Virus record (IMG/VR): IMGVR_UViG_3300021368_000124
Span: 1 to 22,055 of that record
From: a virus
Reading direction: 5' to 3' (one strand)
Length of the DNA: 22,055 bases
The stretch's first letter is position 1. Each line of letters opens with the position of its first letter. Under the pieces are notes generated by a model, which saw nothing but the letters and a program-made list of their open reading frames with translations, was not told the DNA's origin and did no database searches. Both the position numbers and the translations under genes were made by a program. Shown piece after piece: positions 1 to 20,216 of this stretch.

Positions 1-3000
1 GGCGGCATTGGCTCAGGCTCAGGCTCAGGCTCAGGTTCTGGTTCGGGTTCTGGCTCAGGTTGTGGCTGAGGTTCTGGCTCAGGTTCTGGCTCAGGTTGTG
101 GCTGAGGTTCTGGCTCAGGTTCTGGTTCGGGTTCTGGCTCTGGTTGAGGTTCAGGCGCTGGCTCGGGCTCTGGCTCTGGTTGAGGTTCAGGCGCTGGCTC
201 GGGCTCTGGCTCTGGTTGAGGTTCAGGCGCTGGTTCTGGTTCTGGTTCTGGTTGAGGTTCAGGCGCTGGGTCAGATTCTTCGCCTTCTTCAGACTCTTCG
301 CTATCTTCAGACTCTTCGCCTTCAGCAGGGTCGCCTTCCTCCGAGTCTTCTTCGGACTCTTCTTCGTCCTCAGTTTCAGTTGGGTCTACATGCTCATCAA
401 GCACCTCAGTAACTGTTTCGTCAGGCTCCTCTGGAGGTTCAAATTCGGCTTCATAATAGCTAGTTGGGTCAGGGTCGTCAGGCTCACCAATAACGTATGG
501 AGTGTCAGGTGTCTCTCCCCAATCCTGAATACCGCCCGGATTGATAATGAGATCTCCATTTTCGTCGTATGCAATGTTGCGAGGCTCGTCGAAATCGACA
601 GCTACTTGGTCTCCAGAACGTAGTACGTAGTACCCCTGCCTATACAAAGCATTTGCAAGCTCTTCAGCAGTTTCAACACCGAACACTTCCATTAACATGG
701 CTTCGGCTGAAGGACTTAAGACTGATATACCGTCAGCGTTAACGCTGGTAAGCCAATCATTACCGCGTACAAAGTCCATAAATGGAGCAATGTCTTGTTC
801 TGCTACAGAAACATCTAAGGCTTCTCGGTACGCATCTTCGTAGTTCTGTCGCCCTATATCATACGTATAGGTCATTATTGCATCGGAAAGAGCTCTTTCA
901 GTAGCTGTCGGCTCTGAACCAATCTCAAACCCTTCTTGACGCCACATCCGGTTTTCTTCATCAAAAAAGAATTGGTCGCCGTTCGATGCAAGTACGCGAG
1001 TGGGGTTGTTGGTCTCGTCAAAAAAGACACTGTGTCCTGATTCGTCAGTAAATACGCTACGTAACTCTACGGGAACATCCGTACCTTGAACTACAATACC
1101 ATTAGGACCGAAAACGACGTTGTTTCTATCGTAGAAATTACCTTCCGCATCCATGTAAAGGTCGGTTTTGCTGTCCGCTTCGAAGGCAAAACCATCAATC
1201 GGCTGTCCAAGCGGTCCTTCAGGAACATCTTCTTCGTCGTCTTCTTCTACTGTTTCCGGTTCGGGCAACTCCCAATCCAGATCAGGGTTTTGTTCGTTTA
1301 ATAGAGCATACCCAGCTTCTAAAGCGTTTCTAATATTTTCTAGGCTTAAAAGTTCTTCTACAGACCCAAACTCGTCGCTTGCATTAACTAACGCCGCAAG
1401 AAATTCTTCGCTAGATCCAAAGTTACCTTGAGCCGCATCAGCGGCCAGATTCATAATTACACCGCCATCGGGAGATCCAAATTCAAACCCTAACGCTTCA
1501 AGTAATTCTACACCGGCGGTAAATACTGGCCCTAATACAGCACCTGCCGCAGTTATTAGGCCGTTTATTCCTGCTCCAGCGACATCAGATACAGCACTCG
1601 TAATATTATTTATGATGTCCATAAAGGACGTTGTGGGATCTGTAGCGAGCGCGTGGTTATCTAGCCACTCTCCCAAACCACTAAGAAAATCATCAACACC
1701 CGCTATGTCAGCAAAAGTTCCAACAGCCTCCATAGCCCCTTCAAAAATAGATCCTAGATTGCTTCTAACAATACCTTCTAAAAACTCTTCAGGATCAAAG
1801 TCGCCTGTTACAACACCTGTAGTTACCGCATTAGCTACCGCCCTACCTAACGTAGCAGAAATAGCGCTAGGTATACCCACCGATGCAAAAACTGGGCCTA
1901 AAAGTTGAGCACCGGCGGCACCCATACCTAATGATATAGCGCCCAACACGACACCTTTAAAAGCTCTTTCAAAAGTAGAGTCTTCGTGCAGTTTGAACTC
2001 GTTGTATCCAAACTCGCCTAAATTACCGCGTCCCTCTTCGTTGATTCTGTATTCCCAATCGTTGGGATTAAAACCTAATTTTTTGAGTAAACCGTCGTAA
2101 GTAGCGTCACCAATGTAAACAAAGTTAAATTTACCAAGGTCTCTAAGTTGAATACTTCGTTTGTCGTTAGGGTTTGCTCTAAAAATAGACGTGCCCCAAT
2201 CAGCCGCATTGTTTAGCATGTGATTGCCGACTAAACGTCTGAAATGCGCTAAGGTATTTGTACTACTTGGTCGTCTACCGCCGGTTGTTTTACTTTCTTC
2301 ATAACCAGCCTCAACTAACTGGTCATACGCTTGGTGAGCAACGTCTATATAGTCACCAAACGTTGGACTGTTCTCAATAAGGTACTGGTTTAAACCACCA
2401 AAGTTTCTGTCAGCCGCCCTTCTTTTTCGACGAGTTGCTCGACCTTGAGCACCTTTAATAGGAGCATCTGGAGATAATCCTAAACGTGCTCGTGTTTCTT
2501 CTGCTGATGTCATGCCGTGATATTCATGACCTTCAGGCCAAAAGTCAGCAGAAGCTCGCCATTGTCTAACTCTGTTGCCTTCTGGGTTTGGGGCTTCCCA
2601 ATCATCAGGCATGGTCGTAAGGGTGCCGGTATCACCACGCAACAAAACATCCCAGATGTCTATATCATCATCACCTTCGTCATCTTCATCCGGTTCTGTC
2701 TCTGGCTCTGGTTCTGGTTCAGGCTCGGGCTCTGGTTCTGGCTCAGGTTCTGGTTCAGGCGCTGGTTCTGGTTCTTGCGGCGCTTGTTTTATAGGCTCAC
2801 ATTGCTTTGTTGCTTCAGAATAAAAATAACCGTCTGGGCACTTGATAGGTGCATCATCAACCGGTGGCTCTGGTTCTGGTTCAGGCGCTGGTTCCGGTTC
2901 TGGTTCTGGTTCTGGTTGAGGTTCTGGAAAAGGATCGCCGGGTTCTCGATCACCGGGAAAATCAGGAGATTCGCCGGGTTCTCGTTTTACGCCATCGTCA

Positions 3001-4622
3001 CCCTGCCGATCATCGGGTAATGTCGGACCTGCTTCTTCTTCAGCACGACGTCTGGCTTCTTCTTCCTCTCTTTGACGACGCTCTTCTTCCTCTGCCGCGC
3101 GTTGTCGAGCCGCTTCAGCTTCCGCTTCTTCGCGACGTCTGGCTTCCTCTTCTGCTACACGTCTAGCCTCTTCTGCACGGCGTTGTGCTTCCTCTGCGGC
3201 GGCACGTTCTGCTTCTTCTGCGGCACGTCTAGCCGCCTCTTCTTCTGCACGGATACGAGCTTCTTCTTCAGCACGTTGCCTAGCGGCTTCTTCTGCCGCA
3301 CGTTGCGCCGCCTCTTCTGCGGCACGGGCTTCTTCTGCGCGTCGAGCGGCCTCTTCTGCCGCACGCTGTGCTTCTTCTTGCTGTCTACGCTCCGCTTCTT
3401 CTGCGGCACGCTGTGCTTCTTCTTCGGCTTGGCGTCGGGCTTCTTCTGCTTGACGTCTAGCGGCTTCTTCCGCCGCGCGTTGTCGAGCTTCTTCTTCGGC
3501 TCTACGTTGCTCTTCTGCTTGGCGTCTGGCTTCTTCTGCGGCACGTTGCCTAGCCGCTTCTTCTGCGGCACGCTGTGCTTCTTCTGCACGGCGAATAGCC
3601 TCTGCCGCTTCTTGCTGACGTCTAAGTTCTTCTGCGCGTTGTCTAGCGGCTTCTTCCTCTGCCGCACGTTGTCGGGCTTCTTCCGCCGCACGTTGTCTTT
3701 CAGCTTCTTCAGCACGTATCCGTGCGGCTTCGCGTTCAGCTTCAAGTCTTGCGGCTTCTTCTGCTCGACGTTGAGCTTCTGCTTCTGCCTCTGCACGTAA
3801 ACGAGCTTCTTCTTGGGCTTGGCGTCTGGCCTCTTCTTCAGCTTCTCTTTGTGCGCGTTCTTCTGCTTGGCGTCGAGCTTCTTCCTGTGCGGCACGAATG
3901 CGAGCGGCTTCACGTTCAGCGGCTACCCTTGCGGCTTCTTCTGCCGCACGTTGACGCGCCTCTTCCTCTGCACGAAGTCTAGCGGCTTCTTCCTCGGCTC
4001 TTCTACGTTCGGCTTCTTCCTCAGCAACGCGCCTAGCTTCCGCCGCACGCTGTGCTTCTAATTCGGCTTGACGTCGCGCTTCAGCTTCAGCGGCTACCCT
4101 TGCGGCTTCTTCAGCGCGTTGTCTAGCTTCTTCCTCGGCCCTAGCAACAGCTTCAGCTTCCTCTGCGGCACGCCTAGCTTCTTCTTGCTGTCTACGCTGT
4201 TCTTCTTCGGCTCTCCTACGAGCGGCTTCTTCGGCGGCTCTACGTCTAGCTTCTTCCTCGGCTCTAGCACGAGCTTCTGCTTCCGCACGAATACGTTCCT
4301 GTAACTCTCTGTCTGCTCTGTCATCTTGAGGTGGCGCAGGAGCCGGAACAGGGGCTGGGGTTGGAGCAGGGGCTGGCGCAGGAGTTGGAACTGGAGCTGG
4401 CCCTCCGGGAAAATTAGGTGTTCTACTAGGATCAAATGTAGTAGGACGTGTAGGCAACGAAGGTGCTGGTGCTGGCGCGGGAGCAGGCTGTTTTGTAGTG
4501 GGTGCAGGCTTTCCGCCTACCGGTTTTGTAGTAATTCCAAGACCGGGCGGTCTATTTGCACGCAGATACCCCAGCGCCGCAGTAATGCTAGGGAATTCTT
4601 TTGTGCCTACGTAATACGCCAT
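1..4622 (-). CDS. Giant virion-like protein with Arg/Glu/Ala coiled coil and Pro-Glu spacers (partial, C-terminus cut off)
   Basis: An open frame of 1540 codons runs from ATG at 4622 past the window edge with no stop; I checked the frame at several points. Visible order: short N-terminal domain (1-29, starts [10 protein letters not shown]), Pro/Ala linker (30-97), a charged helix of Ala, Glu, Arg and Gln with essentially no Lys (about 100-531), a Pro-Glu spacer interrupted by a two-Cys motif (C595, C608), a mixed region (about 656-1390) holding Gly/Ala-rich hydrophobic helices (about 888-1040), then an acidic Ser/Glu stretch and a second Pro-Glu spacer to the edge. It starts 8 bases after the C1q-like gene, with AGGG ahead of the ATG. 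I recognise no family. Its position last after the tail genes, its length and its helix suggest a tape-measure, ejection or long tail protein. That is inference. The Phe/Leu/Cys-rich plus-strand frames here are its shadows. Confidence 0.85.
141..268 (-). repeat. 36-base tandem repeat coding a Pro-Glu/Gln spacer
   Basis: The 20-base plus-strand motif tggttgaggttcaggcgctg recurs at 141, 177, 213 and 249, an exact 36-base period. Each unit encodes the 12-residue [12 protein letters not shown]. Degenerate Pro-Glu coding continues to both sides, from about 12 to 268. It forms the distal spacer of the giant protein and should be prone to slippage. Confidence 0.85.
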
Positions 4623-4630
4623 GCTAATCC

Positions 4631-5248
4631 CTACACATTACTTACAAACGTCACATCAATCGATGCAGACGGTATGCCGGGGTGCGGAGATGAAGCCGCT
4701 TCTGTGTGTAAGTTTACACCTGTATCGTCTGTTGCCCAGTAGATTTCAATATAATCACTGGCCGCTAGAGAGACCATAAACTCCCAGTTTAGTGCATCGT
4801 AGTCGTTCCCTTTAATGTGGAACTCATGCCCTGAATACGCTACTGAACTACCATTCTTCTCTTCGTAAATCGTTATCTGTGCATCACTAGCGTTGTTGTG
4901 TTCTAACTGTAACGTTACGTTGAACTGATACACCCCTGCATCTGTGACGTTTATGCGGCTGTTGTTTGAGAGAGTAACACCACTATTAAGCACCGTGTTG
5001 TTAAACGTAACTGCATAACCTGTGTTTACGACAGCGGCAGTTTGGTCTTGTGTGCTGTAGAACGTACCTACTGGACTATATATAAATTTACCACCGTTAT
5101 CGGTACTGACTAAGTTATCAAACGCATTTATAAGGCGCGTAAAGAACAGTCGCAGAACATTACTGTTCTGGTCCATAAACGGGCGATCGTAAGTTTCGGT
5201 TGCAAGAGGCAACGCAGGAGGAGCAGGGCGCTCTAATTCGTTAGCCAT
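4631..5248 (-). CDS. C1q/TNF-like jelly-roll virion protein
   Basis: A 205-residue protein. The N-terminus (Met-Ala-Asn-Glu-Leu, then a Pro-rich stretch and a short helix through NVLRLFF) resembles the start of many marine phage virion proteins. Residues about 60-205 alternate in beta-strand fashion, with a [13 protein letters not shown] core and a [14 protein letters not shown] strand near the end, as in C1q-like trimeric jelly rolls used at fibre tips or on virion surfaces. The ATG at 5248 shares a base with the upstream TGA (TGATG), so it should be translationally coupled to the tail-protein gene. It lies just ahead of the giant partial gene. A receptor-contacting or decorating role is inferred from the fold type. 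The fold call is by pattern only; an unrelated beta sandwich is possible. Confidence 0.75.
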
Positions 5249-7116
5249 CAGCGCCTCCCGTCAGGGCGCATGTCCACTCGTGGTGAACCTAACTGCCATC
5301 GAACTCCAAGAGAATCTGATTCAACTTTGATAGACATCTGACGGCCACGCACGCGCGTGTTTACCTGTCCTGTAAACTTCTCAATAGGCACTGTAGCCGT
5401 ACGTGTTACCGTACCAGAGTTGGATCCTCCCTCAGATGTAGGACTGTTATAACCCGAACCAGAGTTAGCCAACGGCAACAGACTCATAGTGGCATGAGGA
5501 TCATCTACTGTAGAGCCATCAAACGTCATGTCCGGCATCAAGCGCCAAATAAACGCAAACCGATCACCGTCATCTATATCAAACTGTCCAGACGTGATAG
5601 ACGCTGAAATCGGCACAGGGGTGCCTGTCTCGTTGTCGTCGGTGCCAAACTCGTGGTTGGTCAAGTTGTATGTATATGAAGCCGCTAGTGGGTAGTCACG
5701 CAGTCCAGAGTCAAGCCACGCTGTACGCGCCATTGTGCCGTAGTACCACGTCTTTTCGAGGTAGTTGTAGACGACATATCGGTCGATTGTTTGGCTGTTT
5801 TGTGAGCAGTAGAACCACCATATCTCGTGAAACGCTTCGTTAGTTCCTGCAAATACTTGGTCGTACTGCAACTCGTTGAAATCGTTAAATACAAACCGTC
5901 GAACGTCACAAGGTAATGTTTGCGTGCGTCCATCGTAGGAATAGAACTTGTCTTTGCCCATCCAATAGGCAACACCACCAGAAAATCCAACGGCATTTTG
6001 AGAGGCAATAGAGGTGTTATCGCCCACCAACTGCACGCCCCACACGATCGGCGCACCTTGGTACTGAAGTGAGTAAAGAGAAGAATCAGTCCAAACAAGC
6101 ACCTCTTGGCGTGACTGTTTAGCCGTTACGATCTCTGTGCCCTTGGATAGTCGCAGGTCACCAGCTTGGTTTGTAGTGGCTGGCGTCCAGTTTGCGGGGT
6201 CTTCTTGGTCAGACCACCGAATCAGCATAGGGTCGAACGTTGCAGAACCCAGCGGATTTGCGCCGAAACAAAAGACGAACCGGCTAACGTCGGACACAAG
6301 AATAAAGTTTTGTTTGCTAGGTACGTTCGACGCACCTGATAGCGTGTTTAGGTACACGGCACGAGTCTCTACGCCGTTGGTTGCATCCCAGTAGAAGATG
6401 TCACCACCTCGTGGCCCAAATATTAAGTCTTCACCAAAGTTAGACTGGCTCCAGAGGCGGATAGCTTCGGTCGATGTGCCACCGGTACCCCATACACCAG
6501 CACCCCATGTGCCACCACCCCAACCGGTCAGAGGCACTTCGTAAGGCTCACCTGTACGTATCTGATACGCACCAACCACTGAAGATCCGCCGTTACCTGT
6601 GTCGGACGCGTTGGCCGTAGCTGTGGCTGTTATGGTGTAAGAGTTAGCATCTGGAACTGCTACGATCTGGTATTCCGCATTCAGCACGCTAGCCGTAATG
6701 TTACCGCCTAGTGTTACCGCGCCACTAAACGTAACAAAATCTCCCTCACGTGCACCGTGGCCGGTATCAGTTACCGTCAGTGTGGTTGACCCGTTGGTAG
6801 CCGCAAAGGTCACATCACCAGCGGCGGTGGTCTCTCGAATCGGCGTAATGTCGTTGTATCCGCCACCTTGCTCTAAATAGAACTTGAGGTGCGTGCCTAC
6901 GCCAATGAGGTTAATGCTTCCAAGCGTTATCCAGTTGGATAGCGAACGGCATACGCCCTGAAAGGTAGACACAGAGATACGTTCCCAGCCACCAATCTTT
7001 TCGGGGTACCCTTGCCGAAATCGTACCTTGTCACACTCATACCAACCAGCTTCGTTAGTGTATCGTGTTACCTCACGATTGATTCCCGGCTTGAAAGCTA
7101 ATTTTTTTAACGCCAT
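5248..7116 (-). CDS. Tail nozzle / stabilisation-like protein (P22 gp10 type)
   Basis: A 622-residue protein from ATG at 7116, preceded by AGGTGCGAT. The frame extends upstream to a TTG at 7140, but ATG is better because it sits 7 bases after the preceding stop and begins MALKKLAFKPGINREVTRYT, a start I associate with marine phage tail proteins. Trp/Tyr-rich blade-like motifs recur: RWSDQEDPANWTP, VLVWTDSSLYSLQY, GVAYWMGKDKFYSYDG, and a Trp/Tyr-rich segment ending YLEKTWYYG. Such motifs fit the beta-propeller-like tail proteins related to P22 gp10 (Phage_stabilise) and T7 gp12, which close or extend the short tail. Residues about 95-175 form a separate Thr/Ala/Gly-rich beta domain (see the insertion finding). 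It lies between a zinc-ribbon gene and the C1q-like gene, sharing TGATG with the latter. The family call is moderate; the structural role is likely. Confidence 0.75.
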   Translation of the reverse strand: MALKKLAFKPGINREVTRYTNEAGWYECDKVRFRQGYPEKIGGWERISVSTFQGVCRSLSNWITLGSINLIGVGTHLKFYLEQGGGYNDITPIRETTAAGDVTFAATNGSTTLTVTDTGHGAREGDFVTFSGAVTLGGNITASVLNAEYQIVAVPDANSYTITATATANASDTGNGGSSVVGAYQIRTGEPYEVPLTGWGGGTWGAGVWGTGGTSTEAIRLWSQSNFGEDLIFGPRGGDIFYWDATNGVETRAVYLNTLSGASNVPSKQNFILVSDVSRFVFCFGANPLGSATFDPMLIRWSDQEDPANWTPATTNQAGDLRLSKGTEIVTAKQSRQEVLVWTDSSLYSLQYQGAPIVWGVQLVGDNTSIASQNAVGFSGGVAYWMGKDKFYSYDGRTQTLPCDVRRFVFNDFNELQYDQVFAGTNEAFHEIWWFYCSQNSQTIDRYVVYNYLEKTWYYGTMARTAWLDSGLRDYPLAASYTYNLTNHEFGTDDNETGTPVPISASITSGQFDIDDGDRFAFIWRLMPDMTFDGSTVDDPHATMSLLPLANSGSGYNSPTSEGGSNSGTVTRTATVPIEKFTGQVNTRVRGRQMSIKVESDSLGVRWQLGSPRVDMRPDGRR

Positions 7117-7123
7117 ATCGCAC

Positions 7124-7333
7124 CTATAGAGTGTCACCAAATACCGGCGGCAACGTGGTTACTTGTATAGATACGCTCTCTTTTAAATTAAGAGGTTGAC
7201 CACAATCTGAACAAGTGTCGGCTTCTAGCTCGGCTTCGTCAAGGTCATAGCCACAATGAGCACAAACAACTTCTACTGTGTGCGTTGGCTCAGTGCCACC
7301 ATCGATATCTCTCGCCTGAACAGTATTACGCAT
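7124..7333 (-). CDS. Small zinc-ribbon protein
   Basis: A 69-residue protein with two CxxC knuckles: C24/C27 (CAHCG) and C41/C44 (CSDCG), 13 residues apart, as in zinc ribbons that bind one zinc ion. The stretch between them is acidic. A GGAG with a 6-base spacer precedes the ATG at 7333, which overlaps the end of the lysozyme gene by 8 bases. The tail-protein ATG follows 7 bases after its stop. Zinc binding is inferred from the cysteine spacing. Whether it acts in the virion, in regulation or as an assembly factor cannot be told. Confidence 0.7.
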   Translation of the reverse strand: MRNTVQARDIDGGTEPTHTVEVVCAHCGYDLDEAELEADTCSDCGQPLNLKESVSIQVTTLPPVFGDTL

Positions 7334-7757
7334 ACCCTTCTCCGTATCGACCGGTGCGAATCATTTCGCAGACTTCATCCGCTCGTGATCCTACCTGTTT
7401 GGCCCAACGCGAATCGTAAAATTCGTCGGCGGCTTTGGGGTAATCTCCTGCCTCCATCGCCGCTAAAGCATTCTTAAAACCTAGCAGACGCGTCATACCT
7501 AGATTAAAACATAGGTTAACGATGGCGTCTTGGCGCACAAGGTCAAGGTCCACGAACCACGACAGTGCGATCAATTCTTGCTTGCACCGTTTTATGTCGT
7601 TCTCAAGGAGGTAGTCTATCTCGTCATCAGATAGACCTAAGCCATTGTTTTCGCTGATGTTTCTACCCACACCGATGGTTTCAAAACCAGCCGGACACAG
7701 ATAGCAAAACTTCTTTACACCTTCATGGCGCTTTAATTGTGCAACGAGCTTACTCAT
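7326..7757 (-). CDS. Endolysin, T4-type lysozyme (GH24)
   Basis: A 143-residue muramidase that should cut the glycan strands of host peptidoglycan at lysis. The catalytic pattern is E12 (in RHEG), eight residues, C21, five residues, T27 (in ETIGVGR), which matches the Glu-8-Asp/Cys-5-Thr triad of T4-like phage lysozymes, with Cys in place of T4 Asp20. The C-terminal half has typical helices (QDAIVNLCFNLGM, GFKNALAAMEAGDY, AADEFYDSRWAKQVGSRADE). No signal peptide or N-terminal membrane anchor is seen, so release should depend on the holin encoded immediately upstream. Three bases separate the holin stop from the ATG at 7757, and AGGA lies upstream. The length is usual for compact phage lysozymes. 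Confidence 0.93.
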   Translation of the reverse strand: MSKLVAQLKRHEGVKKFCYLCPAGFETIGVGRNISENNGLGLSDDEIDYLLENDIKRCKQELIALSWFVDLDLVRQDAIVNLCFNLGMTRLLGFKNALAAMEAGDYPKAADEFYDSRWAKQVGSRADEVCEMIRTGRYGEGYA

Positions 7758-7760
7758 AAG

Positions 7761-8234
7761 TCAGTCCTGTTTCTGAGACGCACCAAAATAGAACGATACG
7801 ACTGCGGAAACAAGACCGCCAAGGTAACCCAAGATCAGGTTGATAAGTTCCATAGACGTCGAACCGGGCGGCTCAATGACGATAAACGCACAGAAAGAAC
7901 AGAAAAAGAGGACCATAATTAGTCCGATCGTTCGTGCAGTCCAGTCTGTAGAGAAGTTAGAGCGTGCGTCCTGAATGTCTTTAGTTTCAAGCGCAAACAC
8001 GTCCACTTCGAGTTCCTTCATGCGGACCTCAAAATCTAGTTCAGCTTTTTTGATTTCAGCTAACTGCTCAGGTGTAGCCTGTTGTAGGGCTTTCTCCATC
8101 TTTGCCGGAACTGGATCGCAACCAAGCACATCTGCCAACATGGACGCCGCCGCACCGCCGACAGGACCGCCCAAAGCGGCTCCAATTGTAGGAGCCAGTG
8201 ACCCCACTAACCCTTTTACTTTGTCAAAATTCAT
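7761..8234 (-). CDS. Holin, GTA-type 3TM family
   Basis: A 157-residue protein. A Gly/Ala-rich N-terminal hydrophobic helix (about 8-38, with ALGGPVGGAAASMLADVLG) is followed by a charged helical region (45-93), then two clear membrane segments (about 102-120 and 129-151) and a short polar tail. This layout matches the GTA holin 3TM family (PF11351). A holin opens the inner membrane at the programmed time so that the soluble lysozyme next door can reach the cell wall. The ATG overlaps the previous stop (ATGA), with GGAG 8 bases upstream. The lysozyme gene follows 3 bases later, supporting the lysis role. Family recognition is from memory of the sequence pattern. Confidence 0.85.
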   Translation of the reverse strand: MNFDKVKGLVGSLAPTIGAALGGPVGGAAASMLADVLGCDPVPAKMEKALQQATPEQLAEIKKAELDFEVRMKELEVDVFALETKDIQDARSNFSTDWTARTIGLIMVLFFCSFCAFIVIEPPGSTSMELINLILGYLGGLVSAVVSFYFGASQKQD

Positions 8235-8416
8235 CTGAAATACTCCGCCGCGCCAATAACTGCAATCAGGAAGGGGTAGATTGCGAGGATCATACGCTCT
8301 AGTTTGTTAAACCGCTCGTTACCTTGGTCCAACCGCTTTTCAATGTTTTGTCGTAGCAGTTTGCACTCGGCTTCATGTATTTCAATGCGCTTGAGCGCTT
8401 CTTCTGCTGTGTCCAT
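8231..8416 (-). CDS. Small coiled-coil protein with C-terminal membrane anchor (XhlA-like layout)
   Basis: A 61-residue protein. Residues 1-41 form a charged amphipathic helix (EALKRIEIHEAECKLLRQNI), followed by one hydrophobic segment at about 42-57 (MILAIYPFLIAVIGAA). This order, helix then single C-terminal membrane span, is that of the XhlA haemolysin-like lysis accessory family, though I cannot confirm homology. The ATG at 8416 shares a base with the upstream TAA (TAATG), and its stop overlaps the holin start, so it sits inside the lysis cassette. It may work with the holin or regulate it. This is inferred from topology and neighbours. Confidence 0.75.
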   Translation of the reverse strand: MDTAEEALKRIEIHEAECKLLRQNIEKRLDQGNERFNKLERMILAIYPFLIAVIGAAEYFR

Positions 8417-8949
8417 TAGTTACCGCCTAAAGGATTTGTTGCGTCTATTGCCGTCCAAAGGTCATCCATATCACGCTCAAAACGCTTGAGGCGCTCATCT
8501 ATTGTAGATAGCGCATCTAATTTACCAGAAACACGTAGTTCTGTTTCGGATGATGTTTTCTCTACTGTACTGATACGATCGCGTAAGTCCAGTAGCTCTT
8601 GCTGTGCATCCATAATTTGCACGAGGTTGGCACCCAGTTCAGCCAGCTTGCCTTGCAGATTCTCAACATCTGCCGCTGTCATGGCATGCTCCATGTTCGA
8701 CAGTTTGACGTCCATCGCTTGCAGTCGTGTGGTATTTGATTCTCTAAGGTCATCGAACCGCGTAGCCAAACCTTCTGCTTGCGCTGTTGCGGCTATGACT
8801 GCCTCTGACTGCTCATTCAATTGTGCAAAGAACTGAGATGCCGCCCAGATTCCGCCCCCAATTGTTGAGCCAAAAGTAAGCACGATAGCAATCCAAACGC
8901 CCTTGATGGACGTCCCGCCGACATTAACCTCTAAATCTTCAAGGGCCAC
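8416..8949 (-). CDS. Membrane-anchored coiled-coil protein of the lysis cassette
   Basis: A 177-residue protein with a single membrane span at about 17-37 (VWIAIVLTFGSTIGGGIWAA) followed by a long coiled coil (about 41-165; LGANLVQIMDAQQELLDLRD is typical). No catalytic motif is seen. The start is GTG at 8949, with AGGAG 10 bases upstream, and the gene begins 11 bases inside the end of the exported 280-residue protein. The next gene is coupled to it by TAATG. A membrane-anchored periplasmic coiled coil next to a holin could be spanin-like or a holin partner, but there is no separate lipoprotein partner and the role is unproven. Confidence 0.75.
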   Translation of the reverse strand: MALEDLEVNVGGTSIKGVWIAIVLTFGSTIGGGIWAASQFFAQLNEQSEAVIAATAQAEGLATRFDDLRESNTTRLQAMDVKLSNMEHAMTAADVENLQGKLAELGANLVQIMDAQQELLDLRDRISTVEKTSSETELRVSGKLDALSTIDERLKRFERDMDDLWTAIDATNPLGGN

Positions 8950-9781
8950 CGTTCAAGCACTCCTCTTGGTTTTCAGCGAACCAACACCCTCCCTCGGGGC
9001 TCGTGGTCCAAAATTCTTGTGTTTCAGCACGTGTTAACACATCTTCTGCGGCAACAAAGTAGTTACCTACCTGCAAGCCTTGAATGGTGCTACCGCCGTC
9101 AAACGATACCCAAACGGCTTGTGTGTCTAAGTCAAAGAAAACAGACGCGGCCTCCTCAAAAGTCACGTTGTACTCTCTAGCCATATTATCTGCTTGATTC
9201 AGTAAGTTTTCATCATTAGCGACCGCCATATACGCGGCGGCAACTTGTATTGCTTGTTCGGTGTTAGACAACGCGTCGTTGTAGGCTTCAATCTCTTCAT
9301 CCTGTAACGTTACGTCGTTTGCACCCATGAACTCTTGTAAGGCCATAGCCTCGCGCTCATCTGCCGCTGTCTGTGCGTCCTGCGCCATTTCGTTAACAGT
9401 AGCGACCATAATGATGGTTTGTGCGGCTTCGACGTAGGCATCGATCATTTCTGACACAGTGTCCATTGCTTGATCGGCTTGGTCTTGGAAGTATTGATCC
9501 GCGTTGGGATCATAGGAGTAAGTAGCCGCTTGAACTGCGGCAACGGCGGCATTGTAGGCGTCTTGCTGTTCTTTAGATATGTGACCGTTCTCGGCCATAG
9601 CTGGAGCAATGTAGCCTTCTCCAGCATAGGATTCGCCCCCTGCAATCGTCTTGATGCCATAGGCAAACGTGTCACGAATGCTTTGAGAGGTGTTAACTAA
9701 GTCGTCAATCTCGGTCGCGTTTAGTGGTACGGAAGCGATCGCTAAGGCTACCGCTATTAGACTCTTGCTCGCCGCTGTCAT
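8939..9781 (-). CDS. Exported alanine-rich helical protein, unknown function
   Basis: A 280-residue protein with an N-terminal signal peptide (about 1-22: MTAASKSLIAVALAIASVPL, then NA), probably cut before Thr23. The mature part is Ala/Asp/Glu/Gln-rich and helical, with many Met and few aromatic residues up to about residue 210. A short beta-like C-terminal segment ends with two Cys (C266, C275), which could form a disulfide outside the cytoplasm. The ATG has GGAGG with a 5-base spacer and lies 77 bases inside the previous gene, so the signal peptide is coded over that gene's tail. I do not recognise the family. Its place before the lysis cassette suggests a periplasmic or envelope role, perhaps in lysis or superinfection exclusion. 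Confidence 0.75.
   Translation of the reverse strand: MTAASKSLIAVALAIASVPLNATEIDDLVNTSQSIRDTFAYGIKTIAGGESYAGEGYIAPAMAENGHISKEQQDAYNAAVAAVQAATYSYDPNADQYFQDQADQAMDTVSEMIDAYVEAAQTIIMVATVNEMAQDAQTAADEREAMALQEFMGANDVTLQDEEIEAYNDALSNTEQAIQVAAAYMAVANDENLLNQADNMAREYNVTFEEAASVFFDLDTQAVWVSFDGGSTIQGLQVGNYFVAAEDVLTRAETQEFWTTSPEGGCWFAENQEECLNGGP
8960..8964 (-). promoter_or_regulatory. Ribosome binding site before the GTG start
   Basis: AGGAG, 10 bases before GTG 8949, within the end of the 280-residue exported-protein gene. It supports GTG as the start of the membrane coiled-coil protein. Confidence 0.5.
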
Positions 9782-10415
9782 CGCCCCCTCCGGCTAAAAG
9801 CTCATCGTAAAAAGCCTTGTCCTCTTCATAATCGGGAATCCACATAGCTGGATTCTGTTTAATCGCTAGTACGGCATTCTTACCCACAAGTAATTTGCCA
9901 GACCGAATAATTGGGCATGGAGTTGCGCTCATAAACATAGCTCTCCATACCTGAGCATTTTGGCACATCAAACTGACAGAGGCCACTTTCATACCCATAT
10001 TTGAGAGCGTAATCGCGTTTAATCTACGGTTGCACTCTTCATCTTGCCGATAAAGACCAGAAGACACGCCAAAACCTACTAACTGTACACCACCAGAAAG
10101 TGACTTAAGGCATGATTGCTGACCTGTGCTCATTAAAGAAGGAGAGACAGCAGTATTCGCAGGCATCTGTCTACCAGAGCCAGCACCGTTGTACGTCTTG
10201 TTGACGTTGTTATTGTTTGAGTTTGACGTGTTTAAGTCGCCCTCAATGTTTGTGTCATCCCCATCACCATCAAAGTCTGGCTCGTACTCACCATCGTCTC
10301 TTACTGGCGGTGGATCAACCTCAGGCGTAGGATCTACCTCAGGGGTGTCCTGCCCGAAGGCAGGACTTAAGAGACTAATCAGCAGGATCAGCAGACACTT
10401 CTTCGTAATCCTCAT
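9705..10415 (-). CDS. Exported four-cysteine protein, unknown function
   Basis: A 236-residue protein from ATG at 10415, chosen because GAGGAG lies 7 bases upstream and the ATG starts a clear signal peptide (MRITKKCLLILLISLLSPAF, cut near residue 21). The frame reaches back to a TTG at 10436, but that would add a charged stretch before the signal. The mature N-terminus has a duplicated TPEVDP, an acidic Asp/Gly stretch (DFDGDGDD) and an Asn-rich segment. A compact domain (about 95-200) carries C102, C128, C151 and C167, suggesting two disulfides, with SVSLMCQNAQVWRAM and SATPCPI as memorable motifs. A polar C-terminal tail follows. It overlaps the upstream gene by 41 bases and the downstream one by 77. 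Function unknown; export to the periplasm or outer surface is likely. Confidence 0.78.
   Translation of the reverse strand: MRITKKCLLILLISLLSPAFGQDTPEVDPTPEVDPPPVRDDGEYEPDFDGDGDDTNIEGDLNTSNSNNNNVNKTYNGAGSGRQMPANTAVSPSLMSTGQQSCLKSLSGGVQLVGFGVSSGLYRQDEECNRRLNAITLSNMGMKVASVSLMCQNAQVWRAMFMSATPCPIIRSGKLLVGKNAVLAIKQNPAMWIPDYEEDKAFYDELLAGGGDDSGEQESNSGSLSDRFRTTKRDRD
9787..9791 (-). promoter_or_regulatory. Ribosome binding site inside the upstream coding region
   Basis: GGAGG, 5 bases before ATG 9781, located in the C-terminal coding part of the previous exported-protein gene. It supports independent initiation within the 77-base overlap. Confidence 0.65.
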
Positions 10416-10626
10416 CGGTGATCTCCTCACTTTCAAGATCTTGTGCTAAGTCTTCGATAAACTTTGTGCGGCAAAATGAAAGCTGTTCTAAGTTGAACTG
10501 AGAATTGCCGATCTTTCGATCGAGATCATTGATGTGGTTCAAGAGCGCTCTTTGTCGATCTGTAAAATCTTCAAGGATGTACTCTTGGCCGTTAACGTTG
10601 ATTGGGGTCTTTTCGTCTTTTCCCAT
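10375..10626 (-). CDS. Small acidic helical protein, DUF6447-like
   Basis: An 83-residue protein. After a short INVNGQEYILEDFTDRQRAL segment comes a helical hairpin (HINDLDRKIGNSQFNLEQLS) and an acidic tail (ESEEITDEDYEEV). The start (VNG, short strand, then helices carrying DLDRKI and QFNLEQL) resembles DUF6447 proteins of marine phages; this is recognition by pattern and is uncertain. The ATG at 10626 has GGAG upstream. Its last 41 bases overlap the exported-protein gene. Function unknown. Confidence 0.75.
   Translation of the reverse strand: MGKDEKTPINVNGQEYILEDFTDRQRALLNHINDLDRKIGNSQFNLEQLSFCRTKFIEDLAQDLESEEITDEDYEEVSADPAD
10423..10428 (-). promoter_or_regulatory. Ribosome binding site deciding the signal-peptide start
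   Basis: GAGGAG, 7 bases before ATG 10415. It rules against the longer frame starting at TTG 10436. Confidence 0.65.
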
Positions 10627-11185: not shown

Positions 11186-14100
11186 TTAGGCTACTTTATA
11201 AACAACCCCTCCACTTAATCTTTGTTGAGTGTTTGTTGGCGTTAAAGTTACGTTGGTGTTTCCAGCGCCTAATTCTTTAAAAAGAATCTCTGTGCTAGTT
11301 ATACCCATATAAAAGTCTTCATCACTCCACGTAAAATCAAAAACCCTTGATAATGAAGTGACAGAAGTCTGTTCTGATAAGTTATTAACAAACGGCAAGC
11401 CCGCAACTTTAGTATAAGCACGGCTTGTAATTGCTGTGCTTGACGAGCTAAAGGTAAACCAAGCTGTCACCTTGTCTCCAACTTTTGTATAGTATCCTGC
11501 CGCAGAGCCAGCCCATGTTGTTGTATTTCCTGAAGCGTCTTGAAGTGAAGGAGTCCACGTCCCTTCTTCGTAGTCGTCTAGTTTATTGGCACCTGTGGTT
11601 CCGCCTAGGTACGCACCGCCTGACAGGTATAGGTCTTTGAAGCGTCCACCTGAAACACCCAAGTCAATAGCGCCGTCTCTGTTAACTAAACCGGTATGGT
11701 CTCTTGGCTGGATGGCATTATTTGCGTCTTGGAAAAGTAAACCTGTATCGCCTTTACCGATTCCTAAGTAGCCGTTATCAGCAGTAATACTACCGACTGT
11801 GGTGCCTCCTTTGTAGAAGTTCAAAAGCGAACCGTCTGTTGTGTTTCTGTTTATAAATTGAACAGTGTTGTTTGTTGCAGATTGATATGATTCACCACTT
11901 GCAAAACGAACATGACCATCAGTATCAACGCCTGACGTAGAAGTTCGACCAACTAAGAAGTTGCCGCTTGCATCAAAAATACCCCGAGGATTACCGTCAC
12001 CATCTGCCAAGACGATGTGGTTGCTTGAGGTGCGGATGTCGAGGCCATTGCTGTTACCAGAGTAACGACCAATGATGGTATTTTTTGCACCAGTGGTAAT
12101 AGACGCCCCTGCCGCCTTACCAAAAAACGTGTTGTCGTTAGGAGTTGTTAGCCCGCCACCTGCTCCTTCACCAACAGCGGTATTCCTTGAGCCAGTAGTA
12201 ACGGCACTTAACGCACCTCTACCAATTGCAGTATTGCTGTCACCAGTAGTAGAAGCCGTAAGCGCTATATAGCCTACAGCAACATTATTATCGGAAGTCG
12301 TAATTGCGTCACCCGCTAGACCCCCGATAAGTGTATTGTTTTTACCCGTGGTTGTTGCATAACCAGATTGGAATCCAATGGCTACGTTGTAGATATCTGC
12401 GGCTGATGTGTTGTTTTGCGTGTTGAGCGCGCGATATCCGAGGGCTGTGGAGCGACTGCCTTGTGTTTCAGTTGTTAAGGCTCTGAAACCTAAAGCGGTG
12501 TTATATTGTCCAACAGTAAGAGCATCAAGTGATTCGCTACCGACAGCCGTGTTTTGTGCGCCCGTGGTAATTTGATCGCCTGAGTTGTAACCAATCGCAA
12601 TGTTATGTTGAGCGGTAGTAGCAAGCCTTAAGGCGTTTCTACCTATAGCAATGTTGTAGCTACCGGTGGTGTTAGTTAGCAGAGCGCTAGTAGAGATACC
12701 GATATTACTATCACCAGTAGTATTAGCGCCCATAGTGTTAACACCCACAGCCACGTTGTTCGTGCCGGAGGTGTTTGCGTCTAACGCAGAAGCGCCAACC
12801 GCTGTGTTGTTAGTGCCTGTATTTGCGCCACCTAAAGCATTAGATCCAAGCGCTGTGTTGTAACTAGCGGTGGTGTTGCCATCTAAAGCATTAACACCGA
12901 CCGCAGTATTGTGTTGACCTGTCGTATTTGCGGCTAAAGTGCCAGCACCTAATGCCGAATTACTGTGGCCTGTTGTACTTGCGCCGAGCGACCCGTAACC
13001 AACAGCCGTGTTACTGCTCGCTGTGGTGCTTGCGTCTAAGGCGGCATAGCCAATGGCTATATTACTGGTTCCAGTAGTGTTATTCAGCAAGGCTTGATGG
13101 CCGACAGCAACATTACCACCAGCCGTCGTGTTTTCTTGCAATGCTTGAGCACCAATAGCGATGTTCTGACCGCCTGTAGTGTTATCGAGCATTGCCGCAT
13201 AACCTACGGCGACGTTGTTAGAAGCTGTGGTGTTGTTATCGAGAGCGTGCATACCTACAGCGGTATTAGAGCCACCCGTGGTATTTGCCTCCAGTGCCAA
13301 ACGACCGAGTGCGGTATTGCTTGAACCTGTGGTATTTCTAAATAATGCCTCGTGGCCCAAAGCTGTGTTGCTTGTGCCGCTTGTATTTCCTGACAGCGCA
13401 CGATAACCAACAGCGGTCAAAGCACCTTGAGTTGTGATTGCATCAAGCGCAAAACGGCCCACAGCCACACACTCACTTGCCGACGTAGCTGACGACATAG
13501 CATTCATGCCAACAGCGGTATTGTGATTACCGCTTGTTAGTTCACCCAGTGAGTCATAGCCCAGCATTGTGTTGTTGGAGCCGTCTTGAACTTTATAGCC
13601 TGCCAATCCGCCAAGAGCCGTGTTATTTGTGCCTGTCTGCGTTGTAGTGCCTTGCAGTGCGCCGTAACCTACGCCTGTGTTGTAGGAGTCAACATTTGAT
13701 GATGGGTTGAAGAAGTACAAAGAGTACATGCCAACCGCAACGTTTCTATCACCCACATCATTGGAGTACATGGAATCCCGGCCAACAGCGACGTTTTCAA
13801 CACCTGTCGTCACACTTCGGCCTGCTCTTGAGCCAAAGGCTGTATTATCTGAACCCGTAGAGGCAGTAAGCGTTTCAAATCCTACGGCAGTAGAGTCTGA
13901 ACCCGTAGTGTTTGCATCAAGCGCCACATAACCAACAGCGGTATTTCCACCGCCCGTAGTATTTAAGTTAAGGGCCGCGTAGCCAACAGCGGTACTTCCT
14001 GTCCCTGTGGTGTTATCTGACAACGACGCATAACCAACAGCAGTGCTTCCGGTTCCTGTAGTGTTGGACGCAAGCGCCTGAGAGCCAACGCCTACCATTT

Positions 14101-16844: not shown

Positions 16845-18017
16845 TCAAGCGGCTATATCGTCCCAATTTGGCGTCTGGCCTGTATCCAGATTACCCCAAG
16901 AAGGACTCTGCGTATCTGTAATGTTCTGCCAATTTGGGGCCTGTCCTGATGATATATTACCCCAAGTTGGCGTTTGTCCGTCAGAAATCGCTTGCCAGTC
17001 TGGTGTCTGATCTGTAGGTATTTCGCCCCAGATGAACACATTTCCGACTGCACCTGAGGCTTCTACGCCTGTTGGAAGTGCAGTTGCTCCAGCAGTAACA
17101 GTTACTGTACCTAAACTTACGGTACTTTCAACTCCTGTAACTATAACATCAACAACGACCGCAACGTGTACAGTTCCGATTGCGCCGGTCGCTTCGAGAC
17201 CTGACGGGGTTGCAATGGCGTCACCCGTTACAGCGACAGTGCCAAGAGACGTAGTAGCTTCTTCTCCTGTAACGCTTACATTAGCGTCAGCAACAACAGA
17301 AACCGTTCCAAGAGCGCTAGTAGCTTCAAGCCCCGCTGGGGATACATTTGCTGTGCCGGTAACAGTGACAGAACCAAGGCCAGTAGTGGCTTCAAGTCCT
17401 GATGGAGAGACAATAGCGTCACCTGTGGCAACAACCGTGCCAAGCGCCGTCGTACCAGCAACGCCGGTAACTGTGAGGTTTGCATCGCCTGAAACGCTGA
17501 CAGTGCCTATCGCACCTGTAGACTCAACGCCGGTTGGGAATACGTTCGCATCACCTGTAACAGTGACAGAACCAAGAGCTGTGGTAGCTTCTTCTCCTGT
17601 GACACTGACATTTGCGTCAGCGGCGACAACGACCGTACCAAGTGCGGATGTAGCAGAAAGGCCCGTAACACTGACATTTGCATCAGCAGTGACGGTGACG
17701 GAGCCTAAAGCGGAAGTACCGGCGACACCGGTAACGCCGACGTTAGCGTCGGCAACAACAAGAACGTTTCCTATACCACCAGTGGCTTCAAGCCCTGATG
17801 GTTGAACTGTAGCCGCACCAGTAACAGTAACATTACCAAGTGCGCTAGTAGCTTCTAATCCAGTAACACTAACATCGGCATCAGCGGCGACAACAACAGT
17901 GCCAACTGCGCCGGTAGCTCCTACTCCATCGACGCTTACAATGGTGAGATCTGTACCCCAAGAGCCTTGGCCCCAAGCGGTAGAACCCCACCCTGTATAC
18001 GTGACAGAGGAGGGCAT
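16845..18017 (-). CDS. Repeat-rich fibre or appendage protein with Trp-rich tail
   Basis: A 390-residue protein. An N-terminal Gly/Trp segment (TGWGSTAWGQGSWGTD) is followed by fourteen 22-residue repeats (32-339) of the type LEATSALGTVTVTGDANVSV plus TG, predicted beta and likely a regular beta-solenoid or stalk. The end (about 336-389) has five 11-residue repeats with Gln-Thr/Ala/Ser-Pro-x-Trp, such as QTPTWGNISSG. The ATG at 18017 shares a base with the upstream stop (TAATG). The giant fibre gene begins 10 bases after its stop. No enzyme motif is seen. A stalk, hinge or adaptor for the giant fibre is suggested by the order and repeat form; the Trp tail may bind another virion protein. The long Val/Pro-rich frame on the plus strand is its shadow. 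Confidence 0.85.
   Translation of the reverse strand: MPSSVTYTGWGSTAWGQGSWGTDLTIVSVDGVGATGAVGTVVVAADADVSVTGLEATSALGNVTVTGAATVQPSGLEATGGIGNVLVVADANVGVTGVAGTSALGSVTVTADANVSVTGLSATSALGTVVVAADANVSVTGEEATTALGSVTVTGDANVFPTGVESTGAIGTVSVSGDANLTVTGVAGTTALGTVVATGDAIVSPSGLEATTGLGSVTVTGTANVSPAGLEATSALGTVSVVADANVSVTGEEATTSLGTVAVTGDAIATPSGLEATGAIGTVHVAVVVDVIVTGVESTVSLGTVTVTAGATALPTGVEASGAVGNVFIWGEIPTDQTPDWQAISDGQTPTWGNISSGQAPNWQNITDTQSPSWGNLDTGQTPNWDDIAA
16848..17012 (-). repeat. 11-residue Trp repeats at the C-terminus
   Basis: Five units with a Q-T/A/S-P-x-W core, spaced 11 residues apart (33 bases) in most steps, close the 390-residue protein. The Trp and Pro positions are kept while the residues between vary. 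Confidence 0.8.
17001..17924 (-). repeat. Fourteen 66-base coding repeats
   Basis: Units of exactly 22 residues run from residue 32 to 339 with no length change. The pattern is x-E/A-A/S-T-x-A/G-L/I/V-G-x-V-x-V-x-x-x-A-x-V-x-x-x-G, with P or V three residues from the end. Constant length points to a regular solenoid or filament. Confidence 0.88.
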
Positions 18018-18455: not shown

Positions 18456-19085
18456 CTAAGTTACAGGTATCTGAGGTTGTCCTGAACGATAAGTATCGCC
18501 GCGAAGTTTACCATCGCCAAGGTTTTTGAGTAACTTCAGCGACTGTACGTACATGCGCTCGTACATCTGTACGAGGTCTGGCTCACCTTTCATAAAACGC
18601 AAGGCTTCCACCAACGCTCCGTTTAAGAGCGCAGAATCAAACTCTTCGCCTAACCATGTAGTACCCGCCGTTACTATCGACTCAGGGTAATACCCGTAGT
18701 GAAGCTCCATTGTATACCCGCTATCAGGAGTTGGTCCCACAATAAAGCTATCATCATCAAAGTTAGCGTAGTGTTTAGGTAATCCTGTAGTAGTCTGTAC
18801 TGGATACGCTTCACGAATAAAATTCACATCCTTGTTTAACAAGAAATGGTAATTACCGCTACCGTCTACAACCGCTAAACTATAGGTATACAGATAATCA
18901 GCAGGTGTGGCTAGGTATTTATTACTCGCAGTTAGTGTGCCCGTAACGTTCTTACGGAGCGCGGGGATCTGAACAGTGTTATAAATTTTCTGTTCAGCCT
19001 GTTCTGTAAACATAGCGAGCTGTGCATCAGTGAACGTATTTTCAGTGATGTCCTCAATGTTAGTTTTCAGCTCGGTATAGTTCAT
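18456..19085 (-). CDS. Phage adaptor-like (head-tail connector) protein, second copy
   Basis: A 209-residue protein. An N-terminal helix (NYTELKTNIEDITENTFTDA) and AMFTEQAEQKIYNTVQIPAL are followed by a beta middle (YLATPADYLYTYSLAVVDG, SFIVGPTPDSGYTMELHYGY) and C-terminal helices (EEFDSALLNGALVEALRFMK). This layout, helices around a beta insert with a GPTP turn and an L-HYGYYP strand, fits the adaptor/tail-tubular proteins of SU10-like and T7-like phages, which sit under the portal. The ATG at 19085 is 3 bases after the 38-residue gene. The gene is 9 bases ahead of the virion-like protein. The family is recognised by pattern only; a tail-tube protein is the main alternative. Confidence 0.7.
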   Translation of the reverse strand: MNYTELKTNIEDITENTFTDAQLAMFTEQAEQKIYNTVQIPALRKNVTGTLTASNKYLATPADYLYTYSLAVVDGSGNYHFLLNKDVNFIREAYPVQTTTGLPKHYANFDDDSFIVGPTPDSGYTMELHYGYYPESIVTAGTTWLGEEFDSALLNGALVEALRFMKGEPDLVQMYERMYVQSLKLLKNLGDGKLRGDTYRSGQPQIPVT

Positions 19086-19529: not shown

Positions 19530-20216
19530 TCAGATCCTCATAGCGCGAGGAACAAAACGAGCTGGTGTTTTTTCTCTATCTTCCCCCGCCGCTAAAGCAA
19601 ATTGCTCTTCGTATGCTTGTTTGAGCATAGGCAAGCGTTCAGCAAGCTCCGGCACTTTCATAGCGATGTGGTATGCAAGACCTGCGACAAGACATGGGAA
19701 AAAGCGGAAGTTCATGTCTGAAGTCTCAGCACCGGCACCGGCGTCTTGAATGCGGCGGAGCCTCCAATAACGGAAGGTATAGTCGTTTGTGTCTGGCACA
19801 GGCCAAACGTTGATTTTAGGGTTATCTCGTAAGCGTTCTATCCACACTTGAATAGGTCTACCACGCGATAACTTGTTTGGGATAGATGCGTAGGTACTTA
19901 CGCTAATACGACTTATCGTAAGGTCAGATTGTGTCGATTGGTTACCTGCACCTGTACGAATTACCTGCTCAAGAAGGTCAATGGTGTCTGCTGGCAGATC
20001 GTACTCAGACGTACCAGCAACGAGGCTTACGGTGCCTTCATCGATGGTCCACAGGTTGATCCCACGGTTCTGCCACTCAATGGTCATCAGGTTCATGGAC
20101 CGACGTGCAGTACGCAAATCGTATCCAGAGCGCATTTCACGGCCAGCACGCTCCCACGCTTCTTCAGCGATCTCCGTGAAGTCCATGTTAAATGCGGTAG
20201 TACCTGACGTTGCCAT
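19530..20216 (-). CDS. Phage adaptor-like (head-tail connector) protein, first copy
   Basis: A 228-residue protein. It has N-terminal helices (FTEIAEEAWERAGREMRSGY; ARRSMNLMTIEWQNRGINLW), a beta segment (DEGTVSLVAGTSEYDLPADT), a basic Trp-containing middle (RGRPIQVWIERLRDNPKINV, then WPVPDTN) and a helical end (LVAGLAYHIAMKVPELAERL). The WPVPD turn and the final helix pair fit the SU10-like adaptor family that docks below the portal. The ATG at 20216 shares a base with the upstream TAA. Together with the gene at 18456 it makes two related-looking connector proteins in one operon; one may be the adaptor and the other a tail-tube-like ring. Confidence 0.72.
   Translation of the reverse strand: MATSGTTAFNMDFTEIAEEAWERAGREMRSGYDLRTARRSMNLMTIEWQNRGINLWTIDEGTVSLVAGTSEYDLPADTIDLLEQVIRTGAGNQSTQSDLTISRISVSTYASIPNKLSRGRPIQVWIERLRDNPKINVWPVPDTNDYTFRYWRLRRIQDAGAGAETSDMNFRFFPCLVAGLAYHIAMKVPELAERLPMLKQAYEEQFALAAGEDREKTPARFVPRAMRI

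Follow-up and report, generated by a model that had tools for sequence, protein, structure and literature searches.

At one end of the 22,055-base stretch of viral DNA analysed here (the window), an open reading frame of at least 1540 codons runs off the sequence without a stop, which raises the question whether it is a gene at all and, if so, what its product does. The first-pass annotation had described a single minus-strand frame of at least 1540 residues without a stop, which was found again at 4622-3, and had portrayed the product as a Lys-free helix combined with Pro-Glu spacers, hydrophobic helices and a disulfide-like motif, a composition that was reproduced as described. The layout of the protein is as follows.

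3..4622, minus strand: giant open reading frame, ATG start, at least 1540 aa, no stop, 3' end lost at the contig end
4509..4622, minus strand: conserved N-terminal tip, residues 1-38 ([29 protein letters not shown]...), recognised from 17 related loci
4323..4508, minus strand: Pro/Ala spacer, residues 39-100, by composition
3030..4322, minus strand: Lys-free Ala/Glu/Arg segment of single-alpha-helix type, residues 101-531, by charge pattern and purifying selection
2658..3029, minus strand: acidic Pro-Glu spacer, residues 532-655, by composition
2799..2840, minus strand: two-Cys motif ([14 protein letters not shown]), residues 595-608, recurring in 8 related loci
1383..2657, minus strand: module A, a conserved passenger, residues 656-1080 (alignment A1)
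1728..1973, minus strand: hydrophobic Gly/Ala helices in module A, residues ~884-965, with the invariant AFKG...TGDF
423..1223, minus strand: module B, beta strands and helices, residues 1134-1400 (alignment A2)
3..422, minus strand: acidic Pro-Glu tail at the contig end, residues 1401-1540, 85% DNA identity to the sister contig L093

Since the window comprises the entire IMG/VR record, the missing stop results from the contig end, which falls inside a Pro-Glu repeat of the gene (Pro-Glu spacers lie at about residues 555-655 and 1440-1540). Most contigs of relatives also end in low-complexity sequence of this gene, and the open end is therefore an assembly break. A 60-kb relative (G001) is cut at both ends within the Pro-Glu repeat, with 1448 aa of the giant at one end and 651 aa including a stop at the other. 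In L093, the gene is complete (1945-8310, 2121 aa, stop present), and its Pro-Glu tail runs on into a C-terminal signature. The extension to a stop was thus reached via this homologue, and the window's own C-terminus lies outside the window. A chance reading frame or a repeat accident is ruled out by the helix, for which dN/dS amounted to 0.007/0.134 against L093, 0.024/0.282 against L012 and 0.068/0.576 against L017, values that indicate purifying selection. Since these ratios are low and module A is conserved in ~18 other contigs (~44-63% identity), the product is a real protein and the truncated giant gene is real. The N-terminal tip showed a dN of 0 against the same three relatives.

The view that the protein belongs to no named family holds in Pfam and PHROGs, where neither the window protein nor its L093 homologue matched any family beyond low-complexity matches, and no known family with a different role was found. 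The sole matches were weak or of low complexity: Pfam Trypan_PARP was set aside, its match coinciding with the Pro-Glu repeats, as were weak PHROG matches to tail-fibre and tape-measure families in L026 and L099. To call the protein the largest unexplained item of the window was judged fair.

Residues 101-531 comprise 33% Ala, 31% Glu, 24% Arg and 8% Gln, no Lys, and lie within a Pro/Gly-free run of 433 residues. Opposite charges are enriched at i/i+4 (z = 9.9 and 12.5), like-charge pairs are depleted (z = -9.9), and a Leu/Ile/Val/Met heptad is absent, the LIVM power at 3.5 being 0.05 compared to a maximum of 0.18 in shuffles. A coiled coil was rejected on this periodicity. The first-pass annotation had left the choice between a single helix and a trimeric coil at 100-531; judged by its charge pattern and the absence of a heptad, Pro and Gly, the segment is of the single-alpha-helix (ER/K) type. 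ER/K single-alpha-helix domains share with it the Ala/Glu/Arg make-up, the i/i+4 salt bridges and the lack of a hydrophobic seam (PMC5347031, PMC4183817), whereas the giant's helix stands apart by its 431 residues, the lack of Lys and its occurrence in a phage protein; it offers a very long natural ER-type single helix for study. If fully helical, it would measure ~65 nm (0.15 nm per residue), probably more than the width of the capsid, so that bending or unfolding would be needed to fit it in, which counts against an ejected protein.

The two Cys of the motif, Cys 595 and Cys 608, are the only ones among the 1540 residues; the position of the motif varies among the 8 related loci, and L072 contains it twice. 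For module A, no relatives were found in GTDB genomes, and both module A and the C-terminal signature are absent from the searched cultured phages (50,697 records), a point against the ejection reading, and from the Pfam and PHROGs models. AlphaFold2 gave an unusable model of module A from 13 sequences (pLDDT 47) and a better one of module B (pLDDT 77), for which Foldseek against PDB and BFVD returned no match at E <= 0.001 and VIA-align a best Z of 4.5 (polo-box and others), under the level where Z is informative. A profile search against the PDB yielded only a 33-residue tendon-repeat match, taken as spurious. The hydrophobic helices at ~884-965 are possibly a membrane-active segment. Profile comparisons of this part were not significant, either with another passenger type or with cultured ejection proteins, and the latter result counts against ejection. 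So does the occurrence of module A in a second phage group (L006-L008, L010, L098, L099), where it precedes a tail-adaptor gene and is joined to a different C-terminus.

What unites the relatives is the ~60-residue C-terminal signature YDFxSIFAxPxQ...GGxVEDxTDKLLRLLG, seen for the window lineage via L093. At least 148 IMG/VR viral contigs encode it, 80 of which were examined in detail. In all 80 loci, the signature lies within 95 aa of the C-terminus of an acidic open reading frame, usually of 850-2300 aa. The passengers upstream fall into five unrelated groups, and modules are swapped between otherwise near-identical phages. A cell-wall-hydrolase motif occurs in 12 of the 80 members, and both tested members, L113 and L166, matched Pfam Hydrolase_2 above the curated cut-off (8e-18 and 5e-18). 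In the window protein, the motif is absent and no hydrolase or membrane domain was recognised, a further point against ejection. The median net charge was -11.9 per 100 aa; the L093 giant reaches -440 in total, while its neighbouring proteins show -6 to 0 per 100 aa. Acidity this extreme and unlike that of the neighbours would be awkward for a protein packed beside DNA and also counts against ejection. Altogether, the giant belongs to a family of very large, acidic and modular proteins that is widespread in marine short-tailed viruses and had not been named before. Thus, common marine viruses carry a large late gene that had escaped naming, in part because its repeats interrupt assemblies. If the giant is an ejection component, the compact signature would provide a handle for finding such proteins and for testing their loading into virions.

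Concerning the role, the neighbouring genes are the most informative. In the window, these include:

4631..5248, minus strand: needle-like protein, 205 aa, with a C1q/BclA-like C-terminal knob, immediately upstream of the giant
5248..7140, minus strand: P22 gp10-like stabilisation/nozzle protein, 630 aa (phrog_3287, 5e-68)
18456..19085, minus strand: SU10-type adaptor, a short-tail component (Pfam SU10_adaptor, 1.6e-22)
19530..20216, minus strand: second SU10-type adaptor (Pfam SU10_adaptor, 4.9e-14)

The knob of the needle-like protein matches Pfam BclA_C at 8.5e-5, under the curated cut-off, and is swapped relative to L093; the counterpart of the gp10-like protein in phage DSL-LC04 is annotated 'stabilization protein'. 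Relatives show the order gp10-like, needle-like, giant, GEFV, phrog_4287 'DNA ejection protein', a protein of ~600 aa and a DarB-like large protein of >2200 aa, and L093 provides this ejection-block context for the window lineage. The GEFV gene directly follows the giant in 80 of 80 loci, starting from ~22 nt before to 9 nt after its stop, and the DNA-ejection-like (phrog_4287-like) gene comes after GEFV in 78, the remaining two contigs ending first. Homologues of the GEFV and ejection genes also lie downstream of the gp10-like gene in phages DSL-LC04, whose GEFV-type protein has 759 aa and carries the annotation tail tape measure, and HTVC027P, where it is gp82 (339 aa); neither the modules nor the signature of the giant were found in these two phages. 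A short [FYM]xxGG[IVLQP] motif recurs in the C-terminal part of the giant and in two further, non-homologous products of the block, and head and tail genes almost entirely lack it, which also speaks for a role in ejection.

Based on these data, we give a probability of roughly two in three that the giant is a modular protein of the ejection apparatus of an SU10/P22-like marine podovirus, carried in the virion and docked by its C-terminus. Among the three guesses of the first-pass annotation, that of an ejection protein is the best supported, owing to the synteny with the DNA-ejection-like gene in every relative long enough, the co-located DarB-like giant and the hydrolase domains in some members. 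We infer that it is part of the virion, that it is ejected, what it docks to, and that it spans the periplasm and acts on a membrane. Its gene stands first in the block whose products presumably enter the bacterial envelope before the viral DNA does. Its ~60-residue signature may dock it to other ejection proteins, most likely to the GEFV product, to the ejection core on its portal side, or to both, and upstream of this anchor exchangeable passenger modules would be strung on acidic Pro-Glu/Asp-Gly spacers and the long single helix. At infection, it would pass the narrow tail in a largely unfolded state, which would account for the abundance of Pro-Glu, Asp-Gly and single-helix stretches. The low-complexity spacers and the helix could then bridge the periplasm, with the hydrophobic helices working on a membrane and a hydrolase domain, in those relatives that have one, opening the peptidoglycan. 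Such a component would show a short-tailed phage reaching across the envelope with a single helix and Pro-Glu spacers. TonB and TolA, which span the periplasm, use Pro-Glu repeats and a long Ala/charged helix as spacers; the giant's resemblance to them is compositional only, and Pfam scans of the window protein and of full-length L093, L026, L059 and L099 revealed no domain of either kind.

Known podovirus ejection proteins (P22 gp7/gp20/gp16, T7 gp14/gp15/gp16, N4 vRNAP) resemble the giant in their late block beside gp10-like and needle-like genes, their modularity, their hydrophobic helices and, in some members, a peptidoglycan hydrolase. The N4 vRNAP, also a giant with low-complexity linkage, is an ejected multidomain protein of ~3,500 aa with a 100-aa low-complexity linker and is thought to thread unfolded (PMC12633501), and ejection proteins are mosaic, with peptidoglycan-hydrolase domains that can be swapped (PMC8954989). 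In contrast to them, the giant matches no named ejection family in sequence, is far more acidic and combines a long single helix and Pro-Glu/Asp-Gly tracts with a constant C-terminal signature and freely exchanged upstream modules.

An unlikely alternative is an external filament on the virion, attached to the tail or needle through its C-terminus and holding host-contact modules outward on the helix and a Pro-Glu stalk. The very long extended segments, the strong acidity, the module swapping between near-identical phages and the adjoining needle-like gene, whose knob is swapped too, would fit such a filament. However, in phage spikes and fibres it is the N-terminal anchor that stays constant, and since the constant part of the giant is C-terminal, the earlier guess of an extended tail spike is weakened as well. 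Furthermore, GEFV and an ejection-like gene always follow, a separate fibre-like protein of 1882 aa is already encoded at 11186-16834, and the helix has no heptad pattern.

Quite improbable is an injected effector, polyanionic and possibly DNA-mimicking, that would enter the cytoplasm and act against host defences, a role attributed to polyvalent proteins. Negative charge across unrelated passenger types, modular exchange and the DarB-like protein in the same block argue for it, and like polyvalent or DarB-like injected proteins (PMC5512222) the giant is large, modular, beside a DarB-like large protein and presumably delivered with the DNA. Nevertheless, Pfam and PHROGs recognised no defence-related domain in the members scanned, the Pro-Glu and Asp-Gly acidity resembles a linker rather than a folded DNA mimic, and no enzymatic or LPD domain, by which polyvalent proteins are recognised, scored above the Pfam cut-off in the window protein or L093, relatives showing only the cell-wall hydrolase in some cases.

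A scaffold or chaperone acting in assembly only, which would gather ejection proteins at the portal via the C-terminal peptide without being delivered itself, is very improbable. The overlap or abutment of the GEFV start with the giant's stop suggests coupled expression, and low-complexity acidic tethers would suit a scaffold, but the hydrolase domains in 12 of 80 members would serve no evident purpose in the cell while particles are being assembled. A tape-measure protein of a long-tailed phage, the remaining earlier guess, has next to no chance: its length, its helical and hydrophobic content, one weak PHROG match in L099 (8.9e-4) and the annotation of the DSL-LC04 GEFV homologue stand against two SU10-type adaptors, gp10-like and needle-like genes, no tail tube or tape-measure gene recognised among the scanned late genes of the 60-kb relative, and a length that varies from ~850 to 2300 aa among relatives.

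Within the preferred reading as an ejection-apparatus protein, it is conceivable, if rather doubtful, that the C-terminal peptide serves as a portable tag for loading, which would bring any passenger upstream of it to the ejection core for delivery into the envelope. If so, marine podoviruses would own a general, interchangeable protein-delivery slot for cell-wall hydrolases, membrane modules, coiled coils and single-helix springs, with polyanionic spacers keeping the cargo extended and threadable.

The window is an IMG/VR record in its full length. Its minus-strand frame at 3..4622 is open from an ATG over 1540 codons and leaves the contig within a Pro-Glu repeat. Residues 101-531 of this giant protein lack Lys and comprise 33% Ala, 31% Glu and 24% Arg, and the helix region contains a Pro/Gly-free run of 433 residues. 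Pro-Glu spacers lie on either side of a mixed region that includes hydrophobic Gly/Ala helices, and Cys occurs at positions 595 and 608 only. The features that the first-pass annotation had described are present, which confirms its observation, and its statement that no named family applies agrees with the searches against Pfam and PHROGs, which gave low-complexity matches only. The ORF encodes a real protein; codon comparison of the helix resulted in a dN/dS of 0.007/0.134 against the related contig L093, 0.024/0.282 against L012 and 0.068/0.576 against L017.

L093, a very close relative, came up when the conserved middle module was used to scan viral contigs. Its gp10-like stabilisation/nozzle protein is 99.8% identical to that of the window across the shared part, and its giant gene is intact, running from 1945 to 8310 and encoding 2121 aa up to a stop. 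In G001 (60 kb) the gene is divided over both contig ends (1448 aa, and 651 aa with a stop), each cut in the Pro-Glu repeat. Since the gene is complete in L093 and split at this repeat in G001, the open end in the window is an assembly break; the contigs of most other relatives likewise end in such low-complexity sequence. The stop suspected beyond the contig is present in L093 and G001, from which we infer the C-terminus of the window protein itself. In L072, a stop at 6557 lies inside the Pro-Glu repeat, which then continues in frame, representing either a sequencing error or a real truncation.

Whether residues 100-531 form a single helix or a trimeric coil had been raised before. At a spacing of i/i+4, oppositely charged residues are over-represented in both directions (z 9.9 and 12.5) and pairs of like charge are avoided (z -9.9), and no 3.5- or 7-residue period of Leu, Ile, Val and Met was found. 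This pattern is the same signature as that of ER/K single alpha-helices (PMC5347031), and the sequence therefore points to the single-helix type, with a length of about 65 nm if fully extended. A second phage group carries helices with Lys of up to about 760 residues, showing the i/i+4 pattern in one direction only. Because the helix is missing in some relatives (L025, L026), it is an optional spacer. The L026 giant includes an uninterrupted run of over 80 Asp close to its C-terminal end (approximately 8500-8873, plus strand).

DNA identity between the window and L093 amounts to 96-97% for residues 1-540 including the N-terminus and helix, 65-76% for module A (residues 656-1080) and 85% for the Pro-Glu tail, while at the position of module B (about 1119-1400) the two are unrelated, L093 carrying another module there. 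As identity drops or vanishes in the middle and is high on both sides, middle modules are swapped among otherwise near-identical phages. In the needle-like gene directly upstream, the C-terminal C1q/BclA-like knob (4631-4973, minus strand) is exchanged compared to L093, and the adjoining gp10-like gene is 97.5% DNA-identical. Module B, comprising strands plus helices, was predicted at pLDDT 77, and fold comparison of this model gave no confident relative; for module A no confident predicted fold was obtained. Module A is about 44-63% conserved in about 18 other contigs. It is found in a second context as well:

L006, L007, L008, L010, L098, L099: module A giants with a different C-terminus ...QVDYVASLxxTLGPxGITSSLFKEYIG

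These giants precede a tail-adaptor and nozzle-like gene pair, with a holin gene ahead wherever the contig covers that part. Since module A occurs in giants with different C-termini and neighbours, it has moved between phage backbones, always beside tail/ejection genes save in L009. There, a major capsid gene follows the module A giant (2-4597) in place of tail/ejection genes, which may reflect a relocation or a chimera.

Whatever lies upstream, the complete giants of this locus have their last 60-95 residues in common (QVxVKxxDPxxLxYxYDFxSIFAxPxQxxxFxSPY...GGxVEDxTDKLLRLLG). Scanning viral contigs with this signature yielded 148 relatives, 80 of which were read. Each of these 80 has it within 95 residues of the C-terminal end of an acidic ORF, the net charge having a median of -11.9 per 100 aa. 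In each of them the next gene belongs to the GEFV family, named from its C-terminal motif, and starts about 22 nt before to 9 nt after the stop. The gene after GEFV is related to phrog_4287 (DNA ejection protein) wherever the contig is long enough. Complete members mostly comprise 846 to 2269 aa, and when 42 of them were clustered by what lies upstream of the signature, five groups without detectable mutual similarity emerged. Among 50,697 cultured-phage records the signature had no significant match; the complete relatives DSL-LC04 and HTVC027P possess GEFV and ejection homologues and lack the giant. In contigs of another passenger type (L039:12579-14471, L046:5898-7784 and similar), the needle gene is separated from the giant by three genes, of which, by eye, one of about 100 aa resembles acyl carrier proteins and one of 370 aa ketoacyl synthases.

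Hydrolase_2 (cell-wall hydrolase) was matched in two members tested with 65 and 66 bits, well above the curated Pfam cut-off of 27 bits, and its motifs occur in 12 of the 80. In G001 and G005 the ejection block closes with a protein of more than 2200 aa matching DarB-like PHROGs, which in G001 contains an HEVGH motif. Coordinates of such proteins at the end of the block are:

L101:11350-18078, minus strand, DarB-like large protein, 2242 aa, zinc-peptidase-like HEVGH motif
L103:4716-11411, plus strand, DarB-like large protein, 2231 aa

Comparing the blocks of L093, L026, L046, L059 and G001, the motif [FYM]xxGG[IVLQP] recurs in the giant C-terminus, GEFV and a protein of about 600 aa, which are mutually non-homologous, and is rare in head/tail genes of the same contigs; it may mark a site of docking or cleavage.

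On the simplest reading, the giant is a modular protein of the ejection apparatus, docked via its C-terminus. It belongs to an undescribed, common marine family that most likely works like podovirus ejection proteins; we infer its presence in the virion, its ejection and its docking partner. By sequence (Pfam, PHROGs), the family falls into no named ejection family. Mosaicism and exchanged peptidoglycan hydrolases are known for ejection proteins (PMC8954989), and the giant family likewise shows swapped modules, with Hydrolase_2 in some members. Docked to the ejection apparatus, the giant would go through the narrow tail unfolded, as proposed for N4 vRNAP (PMC12633501). The Pro-Glu, Asp-Gly and single-helix stretches would need little or no refolding after passage and, outside the virion, could serve as spacers over the periplasm, while other modules would act on membrane or wall. 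The main difficulties for this ejection reading are the strong acidity and the helix length; less probably, the protein may be a filament on the outside of the virion, a scaffold for assembly or an injected polyanion. The earlier interpretation is partly right: of its suggestions (tape-measure or ejection protein, or tail spike), ejection is favoured by the ejection-like neighbours and Hydrolase_2 in relatives, while against a tape measure stands that no tail tube was recognised among the late genes scanned in the 60-kb relative. Judged by gene content (SU10-type adaptors, gp10-like and needle-like proteins), the phage is short-tailed.

Further frames of the window are as follows:

8939-10436, minus strand, a pair of overlapping genes whose products, of 243 and 280 aa, are apparently secreted
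11186-16834, minus strand, fibre-like protein of 1882 aa containing dozens of 'xAIGxxALxxNTTGxxN' repeats, which by eye resemble the YadA head
16845-18017, minus strand, 390-aa protein of 'VSVTGLEATSALGTVVVAADAN' repeats
17032-17805, plus strand, 257-aa stop-free frame antisense to the 390-aa repeat protein

The fibre-like protein had no Pfam match, and its counterpart in L017 comprises 1405 aa, so the repeat number varies. The secreted-type pair, one member of which matches phrog_20531 (unknown function), is conserved in relatives, where it sits between the fibre gene and the lysis genes. The antisense frame is probably a by-product of the repeat.
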